Below, piece after piece: positions 4,501 through 41,241 of a stretch of 64,000 bases of DNA. Location of the stretch: assembly GCA_010093515.1 (NCBI GenBank), contig MU001676.1, positions 1 through 64,000 on the forward strand, written 5' to 3'. The notes beneath the pieces were generated by a model. It worked only from the letters and a program-made list of their open reading frames with translations, was not told the origin of the DNA and searched no databases. Both the position numbers and the translations under genes were made by a program. This stretch comes from Lineolata rhizophorae. Its lineage: Eukaryota > Ascomycota > Dothideomycetes > Lineolatales > Lineolataceae. Each line of letters begins with the position of its first letter. The stretch's first letter is position 1.

Positions 4501-5095
4501 CAGAATGGGCCGACTCAATCAAACGCCCAATCGTTCGTTGTAAAAGCAACTCTTGTTCCTTTCCGCCCTCGCAAGAGCTACCAGTAACATTCCGGTGTTA
4601 TTTTCTTTTCGGAGGACCGGAGCGCAGAAGAAGCAAAGGGAAGAGAAACAACGCCGACCCCTCATCCTCAGCTGAGAACAAAAAGAACAATGACTGCAAG
4701 CCGGTGGCCATCGACCTGTCGTGGAGCAAGCGTCTCGACCGTTCCGAGAGAAAGAGATGCCTAAGAGAAGTACGCCTTGTAAATGCATCTGCATAGTAGA
4801 TAGATAGCGACGAAAAAAAAAGGGAGAAGAGAAGGCAGTAAAAAAAGGAAAGCAATATCCGTAAAAACTAAGACCACTTGCCGTCACATGTATTGACCCA
4901 ATCAGCCGACCCATCGTGCATTCCAAAAAAAAAAAAAACAAATGAGACCCGTCCGATGTCGCTTCGTACGCTGTCTGCAGGTAGGCAACTCCGCCTTGTT
5001 TGTTCCGCATTTCCGTCTACGCCTGCTAGCCAACGCCCTGATATCTCCTGAGCAGTCCCGATACGTCGACAGGCTCGAGCGGCGAGTGAAGCGGA
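1543..5095. other. 3.5 kb gap with no supported gene
   Basis: A long GC-rich stretch lies between the small gene at 862-1542 and SYF1. The open frames here (the largest 270 codons at 2459-3271) overlap on both strands, have no family resemblance and follow base composition, so I do not call them. Visible structure: a 12-base tandem repeat GGCCAAGACGTC, three copies at 3056-3090; poly-A runs near 4806 and 4926; and purine-rich stretches at 4800-4870 that probably fall in the 3' UTR of SYF1. The 1.6-2.6 kb part is presumably the promoter of the left-hand gene. Confidence 0.5.
3056..3090. repeat. 12-base tandem repeat, about three copies
   Basis: The unit GGCCAAGACGTC is repeated about 2.9 times, with GACGTC palindromes 12 bases apart. 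It could be a minisatellite or a spaced set of CRE-like sites; the sequence alone does not decide this. Confidence 0.6.
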
Positions 5096-7623
5096 TTATA
5101 TGTCATCATCCATATCAATAGCGTCCGGATTGGCGGCCGACTTCTGCTCTCCGGCAGGCTTTGGCCTATCGCCGCCCTCGGGCCCAGTTCTAGCCGCGAC
5201 AAAGCCGGCCGGGGCGCGGGCCTGCCTCTCGAGAGCAGCCATCGCGTCGGCCCTCTCCTGGGTTGCGGCAGCCTCCTCTGTTTCGCCGTCTTGCTGCTGC
5301 TGGGCTTGCTGCGCGCGCGCAATAGCTTGCGAGGCAATGAAGTTGACGTCGGTGCTATCGAGTTGGTTAGCGAATGCTGAAATGTTGACAAGTAGAACAG
5401 GGGGCTATACTTGTACTGCGCTTGTACGCTCCGCTTGATACGCAGCATCTCCTTAAAAGTATCTTCGTTGCCGTGCTGCACTTCGAACGCCTCCCACTTC
5501 TGCCAAAAGGCCGGGTTGGTACGCGGATCGCAGAACTGGCTCGCATGCCCGTAGATCGCGCGCGCGCGGTCGATCTCGCCCAGCCGCCGCTCCATCTCGG
5601 CGAACTTGAGGCACATATCCTTAGCCTCGGAGTCCGGCAGCGCCGCGATGGCCCGCTCGTAGATGGGGCGAGTCGACGTGAGGCCAAAGTTCGAGGCAGA
5701 CTTAGTGATGTAAAAGTTAAACATCTCCATGCGGTCCTCGTCGGAGACGGCGCGCGTGGCGCGCTCGTAGATGCGCATAGCGTGGCGGGCAAGCCCGCGT
5801 TCCTCCTCGAGAGCGCCGTACATGAGGTAGAGCGTCTTGGCAAACTTGGGCGGGCAGCCGTCGATAGCCTGCTCGAAGAGGTCGCGGAGACGTTCTAGGC
5901 CAATCTTGCGGTCGACGGCCTTGGTGAGGTATAGGTTCCATAGCTCGAAGGCGACGGGGTAGGAGAAAAGGTCGAGACCGCGTTCGTACACCTTGAATGA
6001 CTCCTCGAAGTACTTGTTCTCCTCGAGCAGGTTGGCGTAGTTGACGACTGTCTGGGGCGTGGCGATACGGAGCTCGAAGATGCGCTCGTACACCTTGCGC
6101 GTTTCCTCGAGCGTGCTGACCGACTCGACGAGGTCCACGTAGAAGCTCCAGAGTTTCCAGCTCTTGTGCACGCGCTGCTGTGGCGAGAGCGTCTCATCAA
6201 AGTAGTCGACCGTAGAGCGCTTGGGAGCTTGGGTCGCCTTGGCCATGATGTCCACGGCGCGGTCGAAGTTTTCGTGCCGCAGCTCCATCTCGGCCCATGC
6301 GACCCACATGTCCGCTAGCTCGGCGACGGATTTATACGGCACCCTGACCGACTTCTCCATGAGAATACGTGCGGTCTTGAGGTCGCCATGCTCTTCGTAA
6401 AACTTGGCGTAGTTGACCCACAACTCATGAAATTTGCCGACGGCCTTCTTCGGATGGATGGCGACGATGGCGTCGGCGTAGGTCTGGGTGACCTCCTTGA
6501 GATTGGTTCCCCAGAGACCGACGCGCTTTTCCCATTCGTTGACATTGTGCGGGTTCTGCCTTAGGAGGACGTCGTTTACCAGGAACGGGCGGCGGTCCAT
6601 GAGCTGCTCGAAGCGCATCATGCGTATGTCGAGGTCGACATCGGCGTCCTCGTCTAGTTTGCCCTTGTTAGATCGTGCAGCGGCCTCTTCCATCTTGATA
6701 CCGATGACGGCCTCTTCAGCCTCGGCGTACGTATCGAACACGATGGAAAAGTCTCGCACTGTCATAGCAGTCGTGATACCTTCCTCAAACACGTCCCTCG
6801 CTCGCTCGTAGTCGCCCTTGTTAATCCAATATCGAGCGAGACCGACCCATAGGATGCCCGTCTGGTCCGGAAAACGCGTAATGCTGCTCCTAATGATAGC
6901 ATCCACATTAACACCTGCATCCTCTCCAGTCTCGATTTCCTTAGCGTGGTCGATAATTAACTCCATCATCTCGGTGAGGAACTGGAACGGCCCTTTGGCC
7001 TCCTTGCTACGGAAGCGAGGGTTGTTAAGGATGTTTATGTACTGCTTGACGGCCTCGTTGTAGCGGCGCATGTCGACGAGGAGCTCGATGAAGTCTTCAG
7101 CATGCTCCGGATGGATCTGAATATACCGACGCCAGATCTTGACCGCAGTTTCGCCCGACGCCTTGTTTGCAAACGGTCGATACAGCGCCCAGATGCGATT
7201 GTGCTGGGTGAGGGGTAGGGCGCGGAGGGCACGGTCAAAGGTGCGGCGGGTAGTGGTAACGAGCGGTTGCTTGGTGAGAAAGGAAAGATACATTTCCCAG
7301 ACGCGCGGCATCTTGTTGAGCAGGACGAGGGCGCGCTCGAACAGGGCGTTGACCTTGAGGAACAGCGGCGCGAACTTGGCCGGGTCCTTGCCGTTCAGGT
7401 GCTTGATGCGCAGCTCGAGGTACATCTTCCACAGCTTGTAGGAGCGCGGCAGCGCGGTGCAGGCGCGCTCGAGCACGAAGGCCTGGTCGGCGACGCTGCC
7501 GTGCTTCTTCTTGTGTAGGGCGTACTCGAGCCACGGCTTGACGCTGCCGGGCTGGCGCGCCAGGTCCTGCTCGAACGAGACGTCATCGTCCGAGACGAAG
7601 CGGCGTACGATGCTGGTCGCCAT
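5096..7623 (-). CDS. SYF1: Pre-mRNA-splicing factor SYF1 (XAB2 family)
   Basis: Minus-strand gene with exons 7623-5411 and 5354-5096 and one 56-base intron close to the 3' end; 823 aa. SYF1 is a scaffold of the Prp19-associated (NTC) complex in the spliceosome. Nearly the whole protein is made of half-a-TPR (HAT) helix pairs, for example LPRSYKLWKMYLELR, LLNKMPRVWEMYLSFL and HKSWKLWSFYVDLVES, followed by an acidic Asp-rich end (DAIDMDDDI). The intron is required: without it the frame leaves the family pattern after SVQAQY, and with it the sequence continues NTDVNFIASQAIARAQQ as in orthologues. An in-frame ATG exists upstream at 7752, but the intervening 43 residues are Pro/Ala/Ser-rich and unlike orthologues, which begin shortly before the SDDD segment, so 7623 is preferred. 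It is divergent from the V-ATPase subunit D gene. Confidence 0.95.
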
Positions 7624-22379: not shown

Positions 22380-22639
22380 GATTTCACGACAGCTAGGCGC
22401 GAGCTGGGCGAAAAAAGGTGTCGCTGCCGCGTGTTTTGTCGAAGTCGAGTGGTGACGGGAGGGGAGCTCGGGCAACGAGTCTCGCCGGACCTGTGCCTTT
22501 GCCAAAGCAACCCCGGCCCAGAGCGCGCCCGGACCCGATAAGATGCGGATGACTAAGTTCGAGACACCTGGGGTCACCTCGACTTCGACCCTTCCTGCCA
22601 ACGCTCCTCCGTCAACACCAACTGTTCACAACGACCACC
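22380..22639. promoter_or_regulatory. Short divergent VMA16 / NDUFS4 promoter
   Basis: Only 260 bases separate the two start codons, so the proton-pump ring subunit and the complex I subunit probably share promoter elements. No TATA box is clear. Confidence 0.5.
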
Positions 22640-26857: not shown

Positions 26858-27570
26858 CTACTTGTTATCGTCGTCCTGGTCCACGGTTCTCAGCTCCACG
26901 CTAGATCTCGCGTCATCCGCCCTGCTCCCAGGCTCCGCCGCGCACGGTAGCGCCGCATCTTCTCCCAAATCGTCTCTGAATTCCGTCCCAGGGCCTAGTA
27001 ACGGCTCCGCCCCCGCCGTGCCGCCGTCACCACTCTTCTCCGCTTGCTCACGACGTCCGATAATCACGCTACCTGCGACCAGCATGGCAGCACCCAGCCA
27101 CCACAGGCCAGGCAGAGACTCGCGGAAAATGGCGGCGCCAAGAAGCGCGGTGAGCATGAAGTTTGCCGACGTGTTGATGACGGAGACGCGAACCGTGGAC
27201 GTGGCCAAAGTAAGCGCACGCGTGAATAGTGCCCACATGATGGCGTTGAAGAGCAGGTTGAGGCCGAAGAACATCTGGCCCAAGTTAGTCGGGACGAGAC
27301 GCCATCGGGGACAAGGACGGACGCCGCGGATGGCATATTCGACCAGCTTGTTCGAATCGCCGAGACCCAGAGCGCCAGAGATGGCGTGCGACCAGGAAGT
27401 GGTCAGCTTCGTTGTGGTCCTAAACGCATTCCAGTAAGTTCGTATCGGCGGCATCTCTTTTGTGGAAAGATGAGCGCGTACAGTTTGGCGAAGACGCCGT
27501 TGAATGCCGCGCACGCCCCGCTAGAAATGGCGAGTCCTAGCCAGGCCGTCTTGCCTTTGGTGATTTCCAT
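26858..27570 (-). CDS. EamA/DMT-superfamily membrane protein (TMEM42-like)
   Basis: Two exons, 27570-27482 and 27419-26858, with a 62-base intron; 216 aa. Exon 1 begins MEITKGKTAWLGLAISSG and leads into AAFNGVFAKL, and exon 2 continues TTTKLTTSW, the pattern I recall from TMEM42-type half-size drug/metabolite transporter proteins. Later hydrophobic helices include QMFFGLNLLFNAIMWALFTR, TSTVRVSVINTSANFMLTAL and SLPGLWWLGAAMLVAGSVII, followed by a hydrophilic C-terminal tail rich in Asp, Glu and Arg. Half-size EamA proteins probably act as dimers. The transported substrate is unknown. It lies on the same strand as, and upstream of, the GH15 gene, with a 1.3 kb gap. Confidence 0.85.
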
Positions 27571-29025
27571 GGCTGCGGACTACGGTGGGGATAAGGGCGA
27601 TGCAGAGCCCTTGAAAATCCCTTCCGGGGATGGAGCTAAACGGCGAGCGTCTCCGCGCGGCTTCGCGAGCTTAGCGGAACACACGTGAAAACAATTGGTT
27701 CACGTGATTCGTTCCCCGGCTAGGTTAGCCGCGTTGACTCGACCTTGCGCAAATCGACCGGTTCAGACACGGCGTAAGTCCAATCTTGGTCTACTGCTCG
27801 AGCTCCCCAGGCCGTCCTAATCTGCTTCTCGTTTTCAGTCGTACTCTGCGTTCGCCTCCATATTGTTAGTCGTGCTAAATTCGTACCACCTCTAGCCCGA
27901 AAATATTTGACATATGGGTACTGGCAAGCTCCTCTTTGGTGTCGCAAGCTCCTCTTTGGTGTCCCGCGATCCTCCTATTCTTGTCCATTAAATAAAGCGT
28001 GCTGCATTCAACGCGGCTCGACATGAACCCCGCACGGTCCTATTCGTACATTGCTTAGAGAATGGCATGAAGGTTCTTACATTCTATACGAGCGTTGAAA
28101 GGCTCGTCGATATCGTATTATTGTGCTCTCAGCATGGCGAACTTTTCGTTTTGTGAGAAGCCGAATGCGACTGATCCAGCTACAAGTGGCGGCAGCTGTA
28201 GACGGGCCTTATATCGCGCGCAGGTGCAATCTTTATCTGGCCGGCAGGGCCACAAGTCAACGCTATGCAAATGCTTTAATAATCCAGAGACATGGCACTT
28301 GCCAGTTGTGTCTCCAAGCCAGAAAGAGTGACACGAAATATGGACATTTCGCGAGGCTTCAACACAATAGTCAGAGCCCTACCTTAGTAATTGAGAACGA
28401 ACGCTGACGCCAACAATTTTAGTGATCACGCTTCCTTCCCGAGTTGCGGTAACGTTCCCCATTTCGTTCTAGTATTTTTGCAATTCTACTATCCGCGGCC
28501 CGAAATATATAGTTAGGAAACAAGCTCGAGTTGTATATAGGCACGGAAGTACCCTTGAAAATCATGCTGCTCCGTGTCAATGCGAGACCATGCCATGCAA
28601 ATGTCGCCATACTTTCGCTTTCGTCGCTTCATTCAGCCCTTCCGAGATACCGCCCCTCCGCTGTCGATTGAAATTGAGATCGTGACAATAGGCAACGCGA
28701 CATCGTTGACGGACCTATCACATCTGTTAAAACTTTGGCCAAGCAGGGCTCCCTAACCGGCACAAGTGCCTCGGACTTACTTTTTTTTCTATCCCAGCCT
28801 GAGCGTAATATTTGCAAAGCACGATATCCGGTACAGCATGACCAAGAGCTCGTTCAACACATGGGAACTGCACTCATTTCGTGTGTTCACCGTCAAACGG
28901 TGCTTAACTAACCAAAAGAAGGCGTCTAAATAAGATCGTATCAGCATCTGCACCTACATCAGCAACCGCGTAAGGCAACTTACCGTGCTTGTATACAGTT
29001 TTGGACATATCCTTAAGAACTAATT
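27571..29025. other. Start of the accessory island; no gene seen
   Basis: Short open frames only, on both strands, without similarity or codon bias. A short direct duplication GCAAGCTCCTCTTTGGTGTC occurs twice at about 27925-27965. From here to about 36 kb the sequence is gene-poor and repeat-bearing, unlike the flanking regions. Confidence 0.45.
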
Positions 29026-29096
29026 GAGCTCGTCTTAGCTTCGCCTAAGGCTACTAGACCCCAGCACCACGTTGAGGTGCGAGCTCGTCGCTGGGG
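29026..29096 (+). repeat. Structured unit, copy 1 of 3
   Basis: A 71-base unit starting GAGCTCGTCTTAGCTTCGCC. It can form two hairpins: CTTAG/CTAAG near its start, and an outer CCCCAG/CTGGGG stem enclosing GCACC/GGTGC. A near-identical copy lies at 29519-29590 on the same strand, so the pair brackets the 54-base hairpin array. A diverged third copy lies at 29699-29765. Strand is arbitrary. Confidence 0.75.
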
Positions 29097-29165
29097 CCCC
29101 AGTTCCCTTTCAGGTCCTGAGGGGGCCTGGGTCACCTTCAAGGTACCCATTTGAAGTGGCCCTGA

Positions 29166-29512
29166 ATGGATAGCCTTTCGGGTGTCCATTTGAGGGGCGG
29201 CCGCAAAGAGCAGCCTATATGGATAGCCTTTCGGGCGTCCATTTAAAGGGGGCGGTTACATAAAGTAGCCTATACGGATAGCCTTTCGGGCATCCGTTTG
29301 AAGGGGCGGCCGCAAAGAGCAGCCTATATGGATAGCCTTTCGGGCGTCCATGAAGGGGGCGGTTACATAAAGTAGCCTATACGGATAGCCTTTCGGGCGT
29401 CCGTTTAAAGGGGCGGCCGCAAAGAGCAGCCTATATGGATAGCCTTTTGGGCGTCCATTGAAGGGGCGGCTACATAAAGTGGCCTATACGAATCACCTTT
29501 CGGGTGTCCATT
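29166..29512. repeat. Tandem array of about 54-base hairpin units, seven copies
   Basis: The phrase GGATAGCCTTTCGGG recurs at 29168, 29221, 29276, 29330, 29383 and 29437, with a diverged seventh copy at 29490; the period is 53-55 bases. After the first copy two subtypes alternate: one carries GCGGCCGCAAAGAGCAGCC, the other GCGGTTACATAAAGTAGCC, so the higher-order unit is about 108 bases. Each unit can fold into a hairpin with an outer stem (ATGGA with TCCAT), a small internal loop, an inner stem (GCC with GGC) and a TTTCG loop. The stems covary between copies: ATGGA/TCCAT becomes ACGGA/TCCGT in copies 29276 and 29383, and GCC/GGC becomes ACC/GGT in the last copy. No open frame runs through the array. 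Confidence 0.85.
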
Positions 29513-29518
29513 TGAGGT

Positions 29519-29590
29519 GAGCTCATCTTAGCTTCGCCCTAAGGCTACTAGACCCCAGCACCACGTTGAGGTGCGAGCTCGTCGCTGGGG
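29519..29590 (+). repeat. Structured unit, copy 2 of 3
   Basis: Nearly identical to 29026-29096 over about 70 bases, differing mainly by CTCATC for CTCGTC and one extra C in the CTTAG/CTAAG loop. It immediately follows the hairpin array, in the same orientation as copy 1. Confidence 0.75.
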
Positions 29591-29698
29591 GCCCATTCTC
29601 TTTTGGAAAAATGAGGGTCCGGTGCTCAGCCTGATAGAGCGGCCTGGTGGAGCGGCCTGGTATGGCGGCCTCGAGAAGCCTGGTAGATGGTGTTAAGG

Positions 29699-29765
29699 TC
29701 GTCTTAGCTTCGACCGCAGGCTTCTAGACCACGGCACCGCGACGAGGTGCGAGCTTGCCGCCGGG
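29699..29765 (+). repeat. Structured unit, diverged copy 3 of 3
   Basis: Shares GTCTTAGCTTCG, CTAGACC and the GCACC-loop-GGTGCGAGCT core with copies 1 and 2. In the outer stem one base pair has changed in a compensatory way (A-T to G-C, CAGC/GCTG to CGGC/GCCG) while two others are lost. Confidence 0.6.
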
Positions 29766-30280
29766 AGAAACTGCAGTCCTAGCCTGTCGCCGTTGAAGCT
29801 GGAAGCGTAGAGAGCAAGATACTGCAATCCAAGTTTCGCGGATGTATAGGCGAGAAAAATAGCGAAAATGTAGTAGAGGAGGCAAAAACTGTGGGGAAGA
29901 AGAGGGCAAGACGGCGTGAAGAAGAAGCGCAGAGGGTTGTGGGAGGAAGATGGTAAAGAGAAAAGGCGACGAGGAGCGCGATCTTCGTGCGGGGCGGTCC
30001 GAGCCGAATCGGGTCGATGCTTCATTGCCAAGACTGTCGCGGTCTGAAACACAAGCAAAAACTCCCGTAGAAGAGCCTTGAATTCTAGCTCATTGACAAG
30101 AACTTGCACGAAGAAAGTAAGAGGAAAGAGACGGAGGTAGAAAAGTGGACGGAAGCAGGTTTAAGTACATTTGTCGGGAAAGTTCTGAGCGCCCGTGATG
30201 CAAGATAGATCGTGATCTACCAGTAACCAAGAAAGGCGAATTTGCCAATGTAATACTCGCCGTGATCCAACCAGTAACAC

Positions 30281-33184: not shown

Positions 33185-33541
33185 TCAACGCGACGGCCTC
33201 GCAGTGAAGCAGGACGTCAATGAGATGACGTTCAAACAGAGCCGAGCACTTGGCTTGATGTTATTGGCGGTATGTAACGTTATGAGTCCTTTTTTGTGGT
33301 CAAAGGAGGAGCAACCACTCTCGCCGCAAATTTGGCCAGACAGGCTCGCGCCGTTCGTGAAGCCACCAGAGCCATCGAAGCACATAGATCCGCTAAATTC
33401 CTGGCCGAAGGCTTCGATGGTCGCCGTTTTGCAAAATGTTTCCTTGATGGTTATGTGGCCGTCGGTAGCAGAACGGGTCTGTCCCCACGCCACAAACAAA
33501 GTGAGACAGAACAAAGTGATCACCCAATTTTCGGTCTTCAT
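33185..33541 (-). CDS. Candidate small secreted cysteine-rich protein, 118 aa
   Basis: A single open frame with a convincing signal peptide (NWVITLFCLTLFVAW, cleavage likely near residue 25). The mature part of about 93 residues has six cysteines (ETFC, SMC, QIC, SGC, RLC, TSC), an even number as in disulfide-bonded secreted proteins, and is rich in Gly, Ser and Thr. I know no family for it. It is isolated in the repeat-bearing island, a usual setting for lineage-specific secreted proteins, including host-interaction effectors; that role is inference only. The frame could also be a chance ORF, but the signal peptide plus the cysteine pattern argue for a gene. The single-exon model is the simplest one. 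Confidence 0.55.
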   Translation of the reverse strand: MKTENWVITLFCLTLFVAWGQTRSATDGHITIKETFCKTATIEAFGQEFSGSMCFDGSGGFTNGASLSGQICGESGCSSFDHKKGLITLHTANNIKPSARLCLNVISLTSCFTARPSR

Positions 33542-35041
33542 AATGACTCCTATTTCAAAGCGTGGGATTATACGAATACTAAGGACCTATGAATGAACCG
33601 TGTCATATTTATTTGTTTTGGAACTGCGGCCTTCCAGGAACAATGCGCTACGGCGATTGTACTCATTAGAGTCATAAAGGGTCAATATTTAGGCCCGCAA
33701 CGGCAGACAACAAAAATATGCGCTGACTATGCTCTGGGCTGCTATTTAGTTAGTAAAACGGCTTCGCATGGTGTATGAAATCACTTTACATTCAACTTGT
33801 TCAGACTGAAATGAGTGCATTGTTATAGCGTGGCCAATATGGAAGGAAGTCGATATGACTGGATGCAAAATTAAGCACGTAGTTAGTTATCTACCGTCTT
33901 AATCAACTCATACGTGTCAGGCCGTGTTTATCCAGTAGAGATAACGACTGCTCATACAGCTATTCTCCAGCGATAGTGCTTCTCGAGAACGACATAGAAT
34001 TGCTATTTAGCATGAAGGTCATCTACCGAATCCACCAACTTCACCAAGGATAGCCACATATTTGTTTGCTACCTGCGTGAAATTTGCTTGAAATAAGTTT
34101 TATTAAAACATCTCTTCGCCGGACGTGCCTACAGTTCTTTGTCTGAGGGTAGAGGCGTTTGTTCTCCACGAATAGTACTTTACAAATTGAAGTTTATATT
34201 CATTGTTAGAAATTAGAAGAATATTTGATGAACAATGCTCTTGCTCAATGAGGAAGAAAAAAAAAAGGAAGAAAACATGTATAACTCTGTGCCTAGGTTA
34301 ATTTTTAATCTGATTTGCTACAAGGACATTGAATGAGTGCGCAGCAGAATATCTTGAGTTGGGTAATTCGACCTACCTTAATTATGTGCGAATATCTATC
34401 ACAATGAGCAAAGTGAACTAGATAAGCACCACTCTACAAACCTTGGCAGTACAATATTTGAGTTACAAAGTTCTGCCCTAGCCTAAACCACAAGCATAAT
34501 CATTTAGTTTTGTTATCCCGACATATTAGGTTCAAGCCTATTCTTCCGCGCTATACTATAGCATCCGTGCTCTGAGAGCCCAGAGTCCTCCATATCGCCC
34601 AAGCACTCGGAGTATCGATCTAAGCAGAGGTACAATGCCATAACGTCACTAAAATGTTTCTTGCGTTCTAACATTACGTTTACCTATCCACCTTATTGTT
34701 TCACGGTCAACACCCGACCATCATTGCACGACAGAAACTTCCAAGGCTAGTCCAATGTCTGCAATAAAGCATAATTGTGAGTGTGTAATATCTGGAAGAA
34801 CTTGTCTATAGTGAATGCGCCATCACTTTACTCCGAAAGACAACCACTTCGGAAGGAACCCCAATTATGGTTGCCATACAGTTTCAAGACCAAAGTAGTG
34901 AGAAACATAGGGTCCGTACTTCCCCTTGGCTAAGAGATGCTCCGAATAATTCTCTAGCGATGTGAAATTTGATAGGAAACCGTGCTCTTTCTCCCGTCAA
35001 TAACAAAACATTGTCGTAGCACTGAATTCAAAGATACCCGC
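33542..35041. other. AT-rich gap, nothing recognised
   Basis: 1.5 kb of AT-rich sequence without meaningful open frames and with an A-rich run at about 34256-34276. It looks like neutral or mutation-degraded DNA. Confidence 0.45.
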
Positions 35042-35419
35042 TCAAGCGCACCAGTCACCACCACCTTTGTCGACGCAATCGGTGCACGGGTACATCGGAT
35101 CGAGGCCACCGCCAAGAGCCTTGGTCGTCTCGTCGCAGCGGTAGAGGGTCTCACGGATGACGTTGGGGTTCCAAGCGATCGTTCGAGCGCCGGACTGGTC
35201 GCGGATCTCTTCGTAGGTCCAATCTGCGTTTGGAACGTGAGGGGTAAAGTGCATTGAGCATGACGCTGTAAAGATGTAAAATAAAATGTGGCATGACTGA
35301 CCATAGGTGTCGACGAGGGTCTTGCCGCAGTAAAGGGTGTTGTGCTCGCAGGCGCCGTTGTCAGCAGCCGCAAGGGAAGATGCAATGGCGAGGACCAAGG
35401 ACGCACTGGAGAACTTCAT
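35042..35419 (-). CDS. Small secreted cysteine-rich protein, 99 aa
   Basis: Two exons, 35419-35302 and 35223-35042, with a 78-base intron (donor GTCAGT, acceptor CGCAG). Exon 1 encodes a typical signal peptide (MKFSSASLVLAIASSLAAA) and the first two cysteines (GACEHNTLYCGKTL). Exon 2 starts DWTYEEIRDQ and ends YPCTDCVDKGGGDWCA, giving six cysteines in the mature protein. The layout of an early YCG, an aromatic stretch, LYRC and a terminal CxxC...GGG...WC is one I recall from small secreted proteins of Sordariomycetes, including plant-associated ones; no biochemical function is known to me. Splicing restores the frame and removes an otherwise odd hydrophobic insertion. Location in the accessory island fits a secreted, fast-evolving protein. 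Confidence 0.78.
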   Translation of the reverse strand: MKFSSASLVLAIASSLAAADNGACEHNTLYCGKTLVDTYGQSCHILFYIFTASCSMHFTPHVPNADWTYEEIRDQSGARTIAWNPNVIRETLYRCDETTKALGGGLDPMYPCTDCVDKGGGDWCA

Positions 35420-36051
35420 TTTTCTTCAAGGGATTATGGAAGTGCTTGAGACAGTGTACAAGGCTTATGTTTGGGCGGGTGGCGTGAAGTTGTGGACGTG
35501 GGAAGGAGAATGTAGGGATGGGCATTCCAGAGTTATCGAATCCCTAGGCATATGCGGGAAGCGGAAAGCGAGAAACATGTAGCGCCTTCCTTTGCTCCAT
35601 GATGCTCATCACTTAATGTTGGCGAACGGAGGGAGTCCCACTAGTCCAACATCGGAAGGCCTAGCTGCCTGCGAGTGCAGTTTAGATTGGCAGCCGCCAC
35701 TTTTCTCAAGTTCAAAAGCGAGGGTGACGGTGAAGGACGCGGAATTGCATGGAACTCGCCATTGGAAGGTACCTAAGGTGCCTATGCATCCAGACAAGGT
35801 CCCACTTCTCGCACCTTGCGGCGCGACTAGAATAAATGACTGACTTAGATATGACCTGGGCCTCGTTCTAGAATGCGTAGAATGGCTGATCTCCGTGATC
35901 TCACAATATAATCGAAGCGTCGATACTTCGAAGTAAAGGAGGGTATAAAACATCGGCCCTTGCTATTTAGACAAGCGATCGTCAAACGTGACGAACTTTC
36001 TAGACTATATACAAATAATATCTCTACACAAACACGTAATTCTACACGCAC

Positions 36052-39666: not shown

Positions 39667-40182
39667 TCATTCCCCATCCTTAGTCTCCGGATCCGGCAGG
39701 ATGCCTTCCTTTTCGAGTCTTCGCCTCGCCTCCTCGAGGGCCCAAGTCTGTATGCTACGTGACGTTAGCACAGCGAGCAAGCGATCCTAGCCTAGGAGCA
39801 AACCAAGACCTCACCTTGTATCCGGTTTAAACGCATACGCCACCACGGCCGCGCCCAAGCTCCCAAAAAACCCCACGTAAAACACAGTCTCCCAGCCTTC
39901 CTTCTCCGCCTTCTGCCCCGGCGGCACCCCCCACAGCCACCCCGTCGGCGGGTCGAAGTGGCCCCCGTGCCCGTGGTCGCCGTGGTCATCGTGCTCGTGC
40001 TCGTGCCCGTGCGCCGACGCCGAAGATGATGACGACGGCGAGGACGCCGCGGGCGCCGCGCCGCTCGTCGAGAAGCTGGCGCTGCTGCGCGGGTAGCTGG
40101 CGCGCACGCGGCGGGCGGCGAAGGCGGCGCCGCGGCTCGAGGGGAAGGTGAGCACGTTGGCGAGGCGGCCGAGCGGCGGCAT
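39667..40182 (-). CDS. Complex I subunit ESSS / NDUFB11
   Basis: Two exons, 40182-39815 and 39754-39667, with a 60-base intron; 151 aa. This is a single-pass accessory subunit of the complex I membrane arm. The N-terminus (RLANVLTFPSSRGAAFAARR) is a good mitochondrial presequence. A Ser-rich and then His-rich segment (HGHEHEHDDHGDHGHGGH) precedes the family core FDPPTGWLWGVPPGQKAEKE, the helix GWETVFYVGFFGSLGAAVVA, and YAFKPDTSIQTWALEEARRR across the splice. The second of two nearby acceptors (CACGTAG) is the one that restores SIQTWALEEA. It is the second complex I gene in the window after NDUFS4. Confidence 0.9.
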
Positions 40183-41241
40183 GGTGGGCGGGCGGGCGGG
40201 CGGCGAGGTTGGCGACGGATATGGGCGGCGGCGAGGAGCGGCGCTCTGTTTGGCCGTGCGTGGATTTGTCGGTGTGCTGACGAGCCTGGGTTCCGGGTAG
40301 GTGCGTGTGTGTAGGCCGCCGGCGACGATGGAGGCCCGGGCGGAGAAACGCCCAATTGGCGCGGCGAGGGGTCGAGAGAGGTTGAATGGGGGGACCCGGT
40401 GCGCGCGGACGGCGTTGCGAAGGGGAGACGGTAAGGGCGAGGTCGAAGGGACGACCTGCGTGATGCGCGGTGGACGGGCGGACGGGGATGGGTGTGGGCG
40501 GGTGAAGTCGAGGTCCGATGGCCGGGCCGAGGAGAGCGTTGACTAAGCGATGAGCTTCGGCTGTGGCATTGGCTGGTGGTCGCAGCTGCATACCTGCACG
40601 GGCGCGGGAGCTGCGGCAAGGTTGAAAAAGCACCTGGCGATCTGAGCGACCGTTATCTCTGGCGCCAAAAGCATTTATTCGCCATGGCGGGATTCGCCAC
40701 GAAGCTCCTAGCAGCCGCGGACTTGGTCGATGGCTGCGCATTACCGTTGCCGGCATCATCGTGTCGCGTAGAAACGTCTTTGGATAAGCACACAGCTAAT
40801 GGGGATGATTATTTTCATTGGGAATATCTGCGTCCATCCATGCTCATTTTCAGTGGGTAGACCGGAAAAGTGGAAAATTCTACACCGCTTCGTTACAAGC
40901 TCCTTGTTCGCATTACCTGCGCGGCGCACCATCAGCCTTAGCCGTGCAAGCATCAGATCCATCCACCGATAAACTCGAGCCCCAGACGCCAGGGTTGTGC
41001 TGATGCAAAGTTGTTAAGAAGAAAAGTACATGGTCCGTAAAACGCCGAGTCCCAACCCTGGTCTCTCGCGAGCTGGGTGGACAAAAGAGGAGAAAAATAA
41101 TATCGAATTCAACCCGAATCGTGACGCACTTGCGCGTCTGTACAGAAAATATAGGTCCCCATCACCGCCGCGAATGCCGTGTCCCCCTCGTCCGTCGGTC
41201 TGAGCTAGAGCTGCCTACACCAACGTATTAGCATAGCTGCT
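40183..41241. other. Upstream region of the NDUFB11 gene
   Basis: GC-rich near 40200-40550, then average. Frames here are chance overlaps. No RNA gene or repeat recognised. Confidence 0.4.

Follow-up and report, generated by a model that had tools for sequence, protein, structure and literature searches.

The hairpins of a tandem array in the genome of the mangrove fungus Lineolata rhizophorae (Dothideomycetes, Lineolatales) raise the question of whether their folded form serves, or once served, an RNA, and if so to what kind of locus the array belongs. The window, that is, the whole 64,000-nt stretch of DNA that was analysed, holds this array at 29166-29515 as seven units of 53-55 nt, together with a diverged eighth unit, X. 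The number and length of the units given in the preliminary description are borne out by TRF (span 29168-29515; period 53 x 6.4 copies) and by the starts of the H1 core at 29174, 29227, 29282, 29336, 29389, 29443 and 29496, in steps of 53-55 nt, and the two alternating subtypes that it reported are best seen as a 107-nt dimer of 3.2 copies, which gives the better TRF score (575; matches 91%). Every unit was said to fold into one and the same hairpin with a TTTCG loop. A shared 24-nt hairpin, H1, is present in 7/7 units, but its loop reads TTTCG in six of them and TTTTG in unit 6, and a second hairpin of 17 nt, H2, with arms GGCCGC/GCAGCC or GGTTAC/GTAGCC, precedes the next unit in the six full units. 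The described exchange of ATGGA/TCCAT for ACGGA/TCCGT in the outer stem holds for four and two of the seven units, respectively, but unit 7 carries ACGAA/TCCAT, mismatched on the plus strand; that of GCC/GGC for ACC/GGT in the inner stem is complete in unit 7 only, with unit 1 an intermediate (GCC/GGT). Across the seven units, H1 changes on both sides at pair 2-23 (TA to CG) and at pair 8-18 (GC, GT, AT). In H2, one of six pairs does so across the six full units (8-16, GC to AT), and another pair is mismatched on the plus strand in three of the six. Unit X, whose alignment score is matched by 0/1000 shuffles against unit 7 and by 2/1000 against the whole array, keeps the H1 shape in a hairpin at 29127-29150 (TGGGT/ACCCA and ACC/GGT) and contributes a further two-sided change, at pair 5-20.

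A protein-coding repeat was rejected, because units of 53-55 nt shift the frame and no ORF longer than 58 aa overlaps the array; a search with the minus-strand frame 29693-30109 finds no homologue at E <= 0.1. Elsewhere in the window, the sole ARAGORN call, a tmRNA at 39981-40554, lies far from the array and is not credible in a fungal nuclear genome. Two small minus-strand frames in a low-GC stretch near the array (33185-33586 and 35042-35425) look by eye like secreted cysteine-containing proteins and have no Pfam match at E <= 0.01. The array itself is flanked by a repeat of about 72 nt, a diverged third copy of which lies further upstream on the minus strand, and the features of the locus are as follows.

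29026-29096, minus strand: ribozyme A, an HDV-like representative of the fungal loop-E type, with a predicted cut at 29097/29096 (Rfam RF02682, 19.3 bits, E 1; model R1, 96.5 bits as a training sequence; descriptor)
29097-29122, minus strand: stretch immediately 5' of A, weakly like 29591-29616 immediately 5' of B (78/1000 shuffles score as high)
29123-29165, minus strand: unit X, diverged eighth H1 copy (shuffle-tested alignment)
29166-29515, no strand assigned: tandem array, with H1 in seven units and H2 in six full units (TRF, unit alignment)
29519-29590, minus strand: ribozyme B, 99% identical to A, with a predicted cut at 29591/29590 (RF02682, 20.9 bits, E 0.45; R1, 99.4 bits as a training sequence; descriptor)
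29591-29694, minus strand: 104-nt spacer from C to B that holds a tandem repeat of period 13 nt at 29629-29671 (TRF)
29695-29766, minus strand: ribozyme C, diverged, 78-80% identical to A and B (BLAST/pattern copy; R1, 81.6 bits as a training sequence)
29850-29999, minus strand: pyrimidine-rich tract upstream of C, a possible Pol II promoter or start region (composition)

The three ribozyme copies share one orientation, with C upstream of B and the array between B and A, beginning 3 nt behind B. At the Rfam gathering threshold there is no match in the whole window. The loose threshold gives only two, both to the F. prausnitzii HDV ribozyme (RF02682) and both on the minus strand of the array flanks, where 20.9 and 19.3 bits fall below the gathering cut-off of 44; C has no Rfam match at E <= 10 and is missed by the strict descriptor. 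Searches with model R1, and of 28500-30200 with Rfam at E <= 10, place ribozymes on the minus strand only, the plus strand of that interval having no ribozyme or other Rfam match at E <= 10, and hammerheads are absent from the window at gathering and from 28500-30200 at E <= 10. The helices of A (P1 CCCCAGC/GCTGGGG, P2 GAGCTCG/CGAGCTC, P3 ACC/GGT) and of B form a nested double pseudoknot of P1, P2 and P3 with a 7-bp P1. BLAST and patterns locate four dispersed copies of the same loop-E type in this genome (31.0 Mb, 48 contigs), starting at C9:826933 (L002), C36:112017 (L003), C33:109030 (L004) and C3:462572 (L006). Model R1, built from the A2 alignment of these four with A, B and C, scores its seven training copies at 75-99 bits, with a relic of 16.6 bits the strongest remaining match across the 25 sources searched. 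Among the seven copies, with P2 of L004 aligned by hand, two-sided changes are found at 6/7 pairs of P2, 2/7 of P1 and 1/4 of P4, and P3 is invariant. In the automatic alignment, in which P2 of L004 is shifted, 5/21 pairs are two-sided against 1.5 +/- 0.9 in shuffles, of which 1/500 reach five, and six slid registers give none; pair types are no more numerous than expected (392/500 shuffles reach as many).

A generic descriptor of the HDV pseudoknot, in which the L3 and J4/2 letters are those of the HDV class and the length ranges were chosen in the knowledge of these copies, detects A and B as well as two unlinked copies (on C33 and C3) and misses C, L002 and L003, which carry mismatches. Its one other match in the window, at 22421 on the plus strand, was taken as chance and not counted, and 30 shuffles of the window gave four matches in all. 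In 7/7 loop-E copies, the 3' strand of P2 is preceded by CTAA or CCAA, which fits C-N-R-A, presumably the J4/2 motif bearing the HDV catalytic C, the catalytic C here being placed by alignment, and by eye at 29038 in A and 29531 in B. A C-G pair stands at the cut site in 6/7 copies, A and B among them; AGTA opposite GAA within P4, letters that we take to be the loop E motif (AGUA/GAA), also occurs in 6/7; and an extra C lies before P3, between P2 and P3, in all seven, with P2 of L004 possibly extending to include it. By eye, a possible P1.1 sets the CC of L3 against GG after P1 in most copies of a second, classical group described below, and is not clear in the loop-E copies. Rfam gives no HDV match to L002, L003, L004 and L006, as to C, even at E <= 10. 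In the available text of its description, a fungal HDV variant of 230 copies in 26 species is set apart from the general class by a C-G at the cut site, a loop E in P4 and an additional nucleotide, usually C, that separates P2 from P3, and cleavage is reported for two of its RNAs (PMC5640933). These features, together with the fold, make a strong case from sequence that A and B are HDV-type ribozymes of the fungal variant kind. Ribozyme C, with one mismatch in P1, one in P2, T.G at the cut site and AGAA for AGTA in loop E, is probably decayed and inactive.

The classical HDV-like group also comprises seven copies. A pair in direct tandem that starts at C3:682398 and 682222 (L070) and single copies at C9:97778 (L071) and C13:866823 (L072) came from a loose core pattern, those at C13:912857 (L075) and C2:1328488 (L076) were added by Rfam genome searches, and that at C11:307924 (L078) by a pattern. 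With helices placed by hand, two-sided changes occur at 3/7 P1 and 4/6 P2 pairs, and 91/91 cells are paired, partly by selection, as 6/7 copies were kept because the scan found P1 and P2 paired. Matches at E <= 10 also arise in control genomes (RF02682 8/14, RF00094 4/14), so loose matches to these two families were counted only with P2 pairing, which rests on the scan for L070, L071, L072, L075 and L078 and on the hand-placed helices for L076, missed by the scan. The loose core pattern gave 31 sites, 7 of them already known and 6 examined (4 kept, 2 dropped), and the count covers these 13; the pattern behind L078, one base off the known copies, has 31 real and 31 control matches, and of two new sites examined one was kept. 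Sites at C11:103870 (16.6 bits with R1, six broken pairs) and C16:360880 (18.2 bits), as well as L073, L074 and L079, which match in the core letters alone and in which the scan saw no pseudoknot, were not counted. The genome thus holds at least 14 ribozyme-like copies, C included, at 11 loci, a lower bound given that the searches were pattern-led or scored 61/3301 and 86/1850 candidates. Best Rfam scores in the classical group are 26.6 to 42.3 bits, the highest of all 14 copies comparing with a gathering cut-off of 50; standard annotation would miss such ribozymes, as none of the 14 reaches the Rfam cut-offs. Five of the 14 (A, B, C and the L070 pair) stand in direct tandem, a share that is no estimate for the genome. 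The remaining nine are solitary in the flanks examined, which span roughly 0.4-5 kb and were scanned with the descriptor for either type and with R1 for the loop-E copies; tandem order is thus not general.

Several features of these copies were noted in passing. L072 and L075 have 12 identical bases in common close to the cut site. Immediately 5' of the ribozyme, the loop-E copies L003, L004 and L006 read TTTA and the classical L076 reads GTTA, which may reflect an insertion preference. Short tandem repeats of the GGCGTTT type lie upstream of two ribozymes of different groups (L076, upstream of 389; L055, 4734-4774). Upstream of the L004 ribozyme (C33; L054, about 4850 to 5115) lies GGTTCGATTCC, which we take to resemble the tRNA B-box motif, and eight consecutive T lie behind the ribozyme; this is perhaps a Pol III unit, and ARAGORN finds no tRNA.

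The spacing of the tandem copies suggests how the array may have come to lie between A and B. The start-to-start distance is 176 nt both for C-B and for the L070 pair, an equality at two loci that was noticed post hoc and may be luck. That of B-A is 494 nt, which becomes 172 nt once the six extra units, 322 nt from the first hairpin to the last, are subtracted. These distances point to a probable ancestral unit of about 172-176 nt, made up of a ribozyme and some 100 nt of hairpins, and the B-A spacer would have grown from it by tandem duplication of a two-hairpin unit. At L070 (C3:681700-682900, minus strand), the 100 nt before each ribozyme folds into short hairpins. The spacers of different loci share nothing convincing (48 comparisons, 300 shuffles; the lowest, 4/300, is unremarkable among so many). 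A and B are each other's nearest copies, as are the two of L070 (84% identical), and C is equally near L072 (0.80) and A (0.80), which leaves a common tandem origin of C and B weak. Transcription is predicted to run on the minus strand from upstream of C, perhaps starting at the pyrimidine-rich tract, whose near and far ends lie 84 and 233 nt upstream of C. Such CT tracts are a mark of fungal promoters, and on the minus strand 29850-29949 consists of 81% pyrimidine, which places it at the 99.9th percentile within the window. Self-cleavage by B and A, and in the past by C, immediately 5' of each ribozyme would then free an RNA of 494 nt that runs from ribozyme B through the seven H1 units, with their H2 hairpins, and unit X to the stretch preceding A, and that carries a 5' hydroxyl at one end and a 2',3'-cyclic phosphate at the other. 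The tRNA-ligase pathway could join such ends, in which case the product may be circular and retrozyme-like, and the locus might be mobile. We place at about even the chance that the array is the body of a non-coding, retrozyme-like, ribozyme-bracketed locus of the minus strand, the transcript of which is processed by its own ribozymes into a 494-nt hairpin RNA, possibly circular.

How far the fold of the array itself speaks for this locus depends on the strand and on the history of the units. The minimum free energy of the array has a z of -4.98 on the plus strand and -2.90 on the minus strand, with 0/100 dinucleotide shuffles reaching either, and the predicted 494-nt product, folded as a circle, gives -4.43 plus versus -3.98 minus; two 176-nt units as circles are no better than chance (z -1.38, 4/40 shuffles; z -1.73, 2/40). 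With X included, H1 changes on both sides at 3/9 pairs, where six slid registers give 0-1. Three such pairs are reached in 36/500 shuffles, the observed five double-changed cells in 0/500 and the number of pair types in 433/500, all on 7 distinct rows that are related by duplication. Two observations add weight to the claim of present or past maintenance of a folded RNA: the array lies in a non-coding segment between HDV-type ribozymes, and X retains the H1 shape with an additional two-sided change. What tempers the claim is a neutral minisatellite. Slippage or unequal exchange would have multiplied a short, palindrome-rich unit within the spacer of two locally duplicated ribozymes, the two-sided stem changes would come from template switching or conversion between arms and have been spread by duplication, and the array itself would do nothing. 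This possible, if doubtful, alternative agrees with the few distinct H1 rows and the shuffles that match their two-sided pairs, with the regular 107-nt dimer period, which points to duplication of two-unit blocks, with the better folding of the strand opposite the ribozymes, and with the lack of a second array in the genome, where the hairpin pattern with 3 mismatches matches at 6 sites inside the array and 3 elsewhere, compared with 2 in the control. It sits less well with X, diverged and still forming the same hairpin, and with the paired intermediate at H1 pair 8-18 on the plus strand (GC-GU-AU). Arm-to-arm conversion of a palindromic seed, possible for the array, cannot explain the ribozymes, as their pseudoknotted P2 covaries across unlinked loci. 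Relatives of the array are absent from IMG/VR (two exact patterns), GTDB contigs (one exact pattern) and plasmids, a weak test in non-fungal collections.

The strand on which the array folds better also bears on a quite improbable alternative, that a plus-strand structured RNA or cruciform DNA keeps the hairpins and the minus-strand ribozymes are unrelated neighbours. More H1 cells are indeed paired on the plus strand (69/72 versus 64/72), and both this and the z-scores would be expected of it, but the two A.C mismatches of unit 7 on the plus strand are G.U pairs on the minus strand, the plus strand lacks Rfam matches over the interval searched, and 3 nt separate ribozyme B from the array. The solitary copies could instead mean that the ribozymes are gene-processing elements, trimming the leader or 3' end of a host transcript in the vicinity, for example upstream of the EamA-like frame 26858-27520 on the minus strand (91% over 85% of the frame to a Lineolata rhizophorae EamA-domain protein), with tandem order and array incidental. 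The widely variable gene associations in the available account of the published fungal set (PMC5640933) and the finding of no retrotransposon or reverse-transcriptase domain in 10 ORFs tested near four copies fit such a role, which we nevertheless judge unlikely, with A about 1.5 kb from that frame and direct tandem ribozymes, which would shred a leader, at two separate loci. The ribozyme-bracketed locus, for its part, has against it the stronger plus-strand fold, the single array, the unrelated spacers, the probable decay of C, the Rfam scores below cut-off, the 176-nt circles that fold at chance and the nine solitary copies. Its generalisation, that tandem units of about 176 nt with HDV-type ribozymes form a fungal retrozyme-like class making small circular RNAs, one of which grew a two-hairpin minisatellite body whose shape was kept by RNA selection, is tentative and rather on the improbable side.

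Set beside known systems, A and B share with the fungal HDV variant the C-G cut site, a loop E replacing part of P4, the extra C and the nested pseudoknot, and differ in their tandem pairs and hairpin array, which are absent from the available part of its description, and in being known from sequence (PMC5640933). LINEs, R2 and L1Tc among them, have HDV-like ribozymes of the same class (PMC7761336), and the 10 ORFs tested near four copies here carry no retrotransposon domain. Fungal viroid-like RNAs and ambiviruses are also reported to have self-cleaving ribozymes, but as RNA replicons, whereas the present ribozymes are chromosomal and on one strand (PMC10162972, PMC13343976). The layout comes closest to the retrozymes, as their available accounts present them. 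Animal non-LTR retrozymes are likewise non-coding, with ribozymes in direct tandem and a unit of about 170-400 nt, compared with 176 nt at two loci here, and the same order yields circles there, most likely via tRNA ligase (PMC7229834); they differ in using type I hammerheads rather than the HDV type, and in occurring as dimers to large multimers in many copies, compared with two small tandem loci, a longer B-A unit of 494 nt and predicted circles here. Plant LTR retrozymes, which also yield circles, resemble the locus in that two direct repeats with a ribozyme each delimit a non-coding body and little sequence is shared between elements, but they have hammerheads, LTRs of about 350 bp, a PBS and PPT and a body of 600-1000 bp (PMC4918200). 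Of the retrozyme features, direct-repeat ribozymes around a non-coding body are thus present here; hammerheads and many dispersed copies of the element are absent, only the ribozyme being dispersed. Since the ribozymes are no hammerheads, the layout is a variant of that of retrozymes and no retrozyme proper. In the open-licence full-text literature, we recognised no description of tandem HDV-type ribozymes bracketing a fungal non-coding body, and in the accounts available, chromosome-encoded RNA circles made by ribozymes are tied to hammerheads in plants and animals (PMC4918200, PMC7229834). If the proposed locus is real, a second ribozyme class and a third kingdom would have reached the same layout, and the fungal HDV variants would gain a testable job. 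The ribozymes are new members of a known HDV-type kind; the layout in which they bracket the array is what appears to be new.
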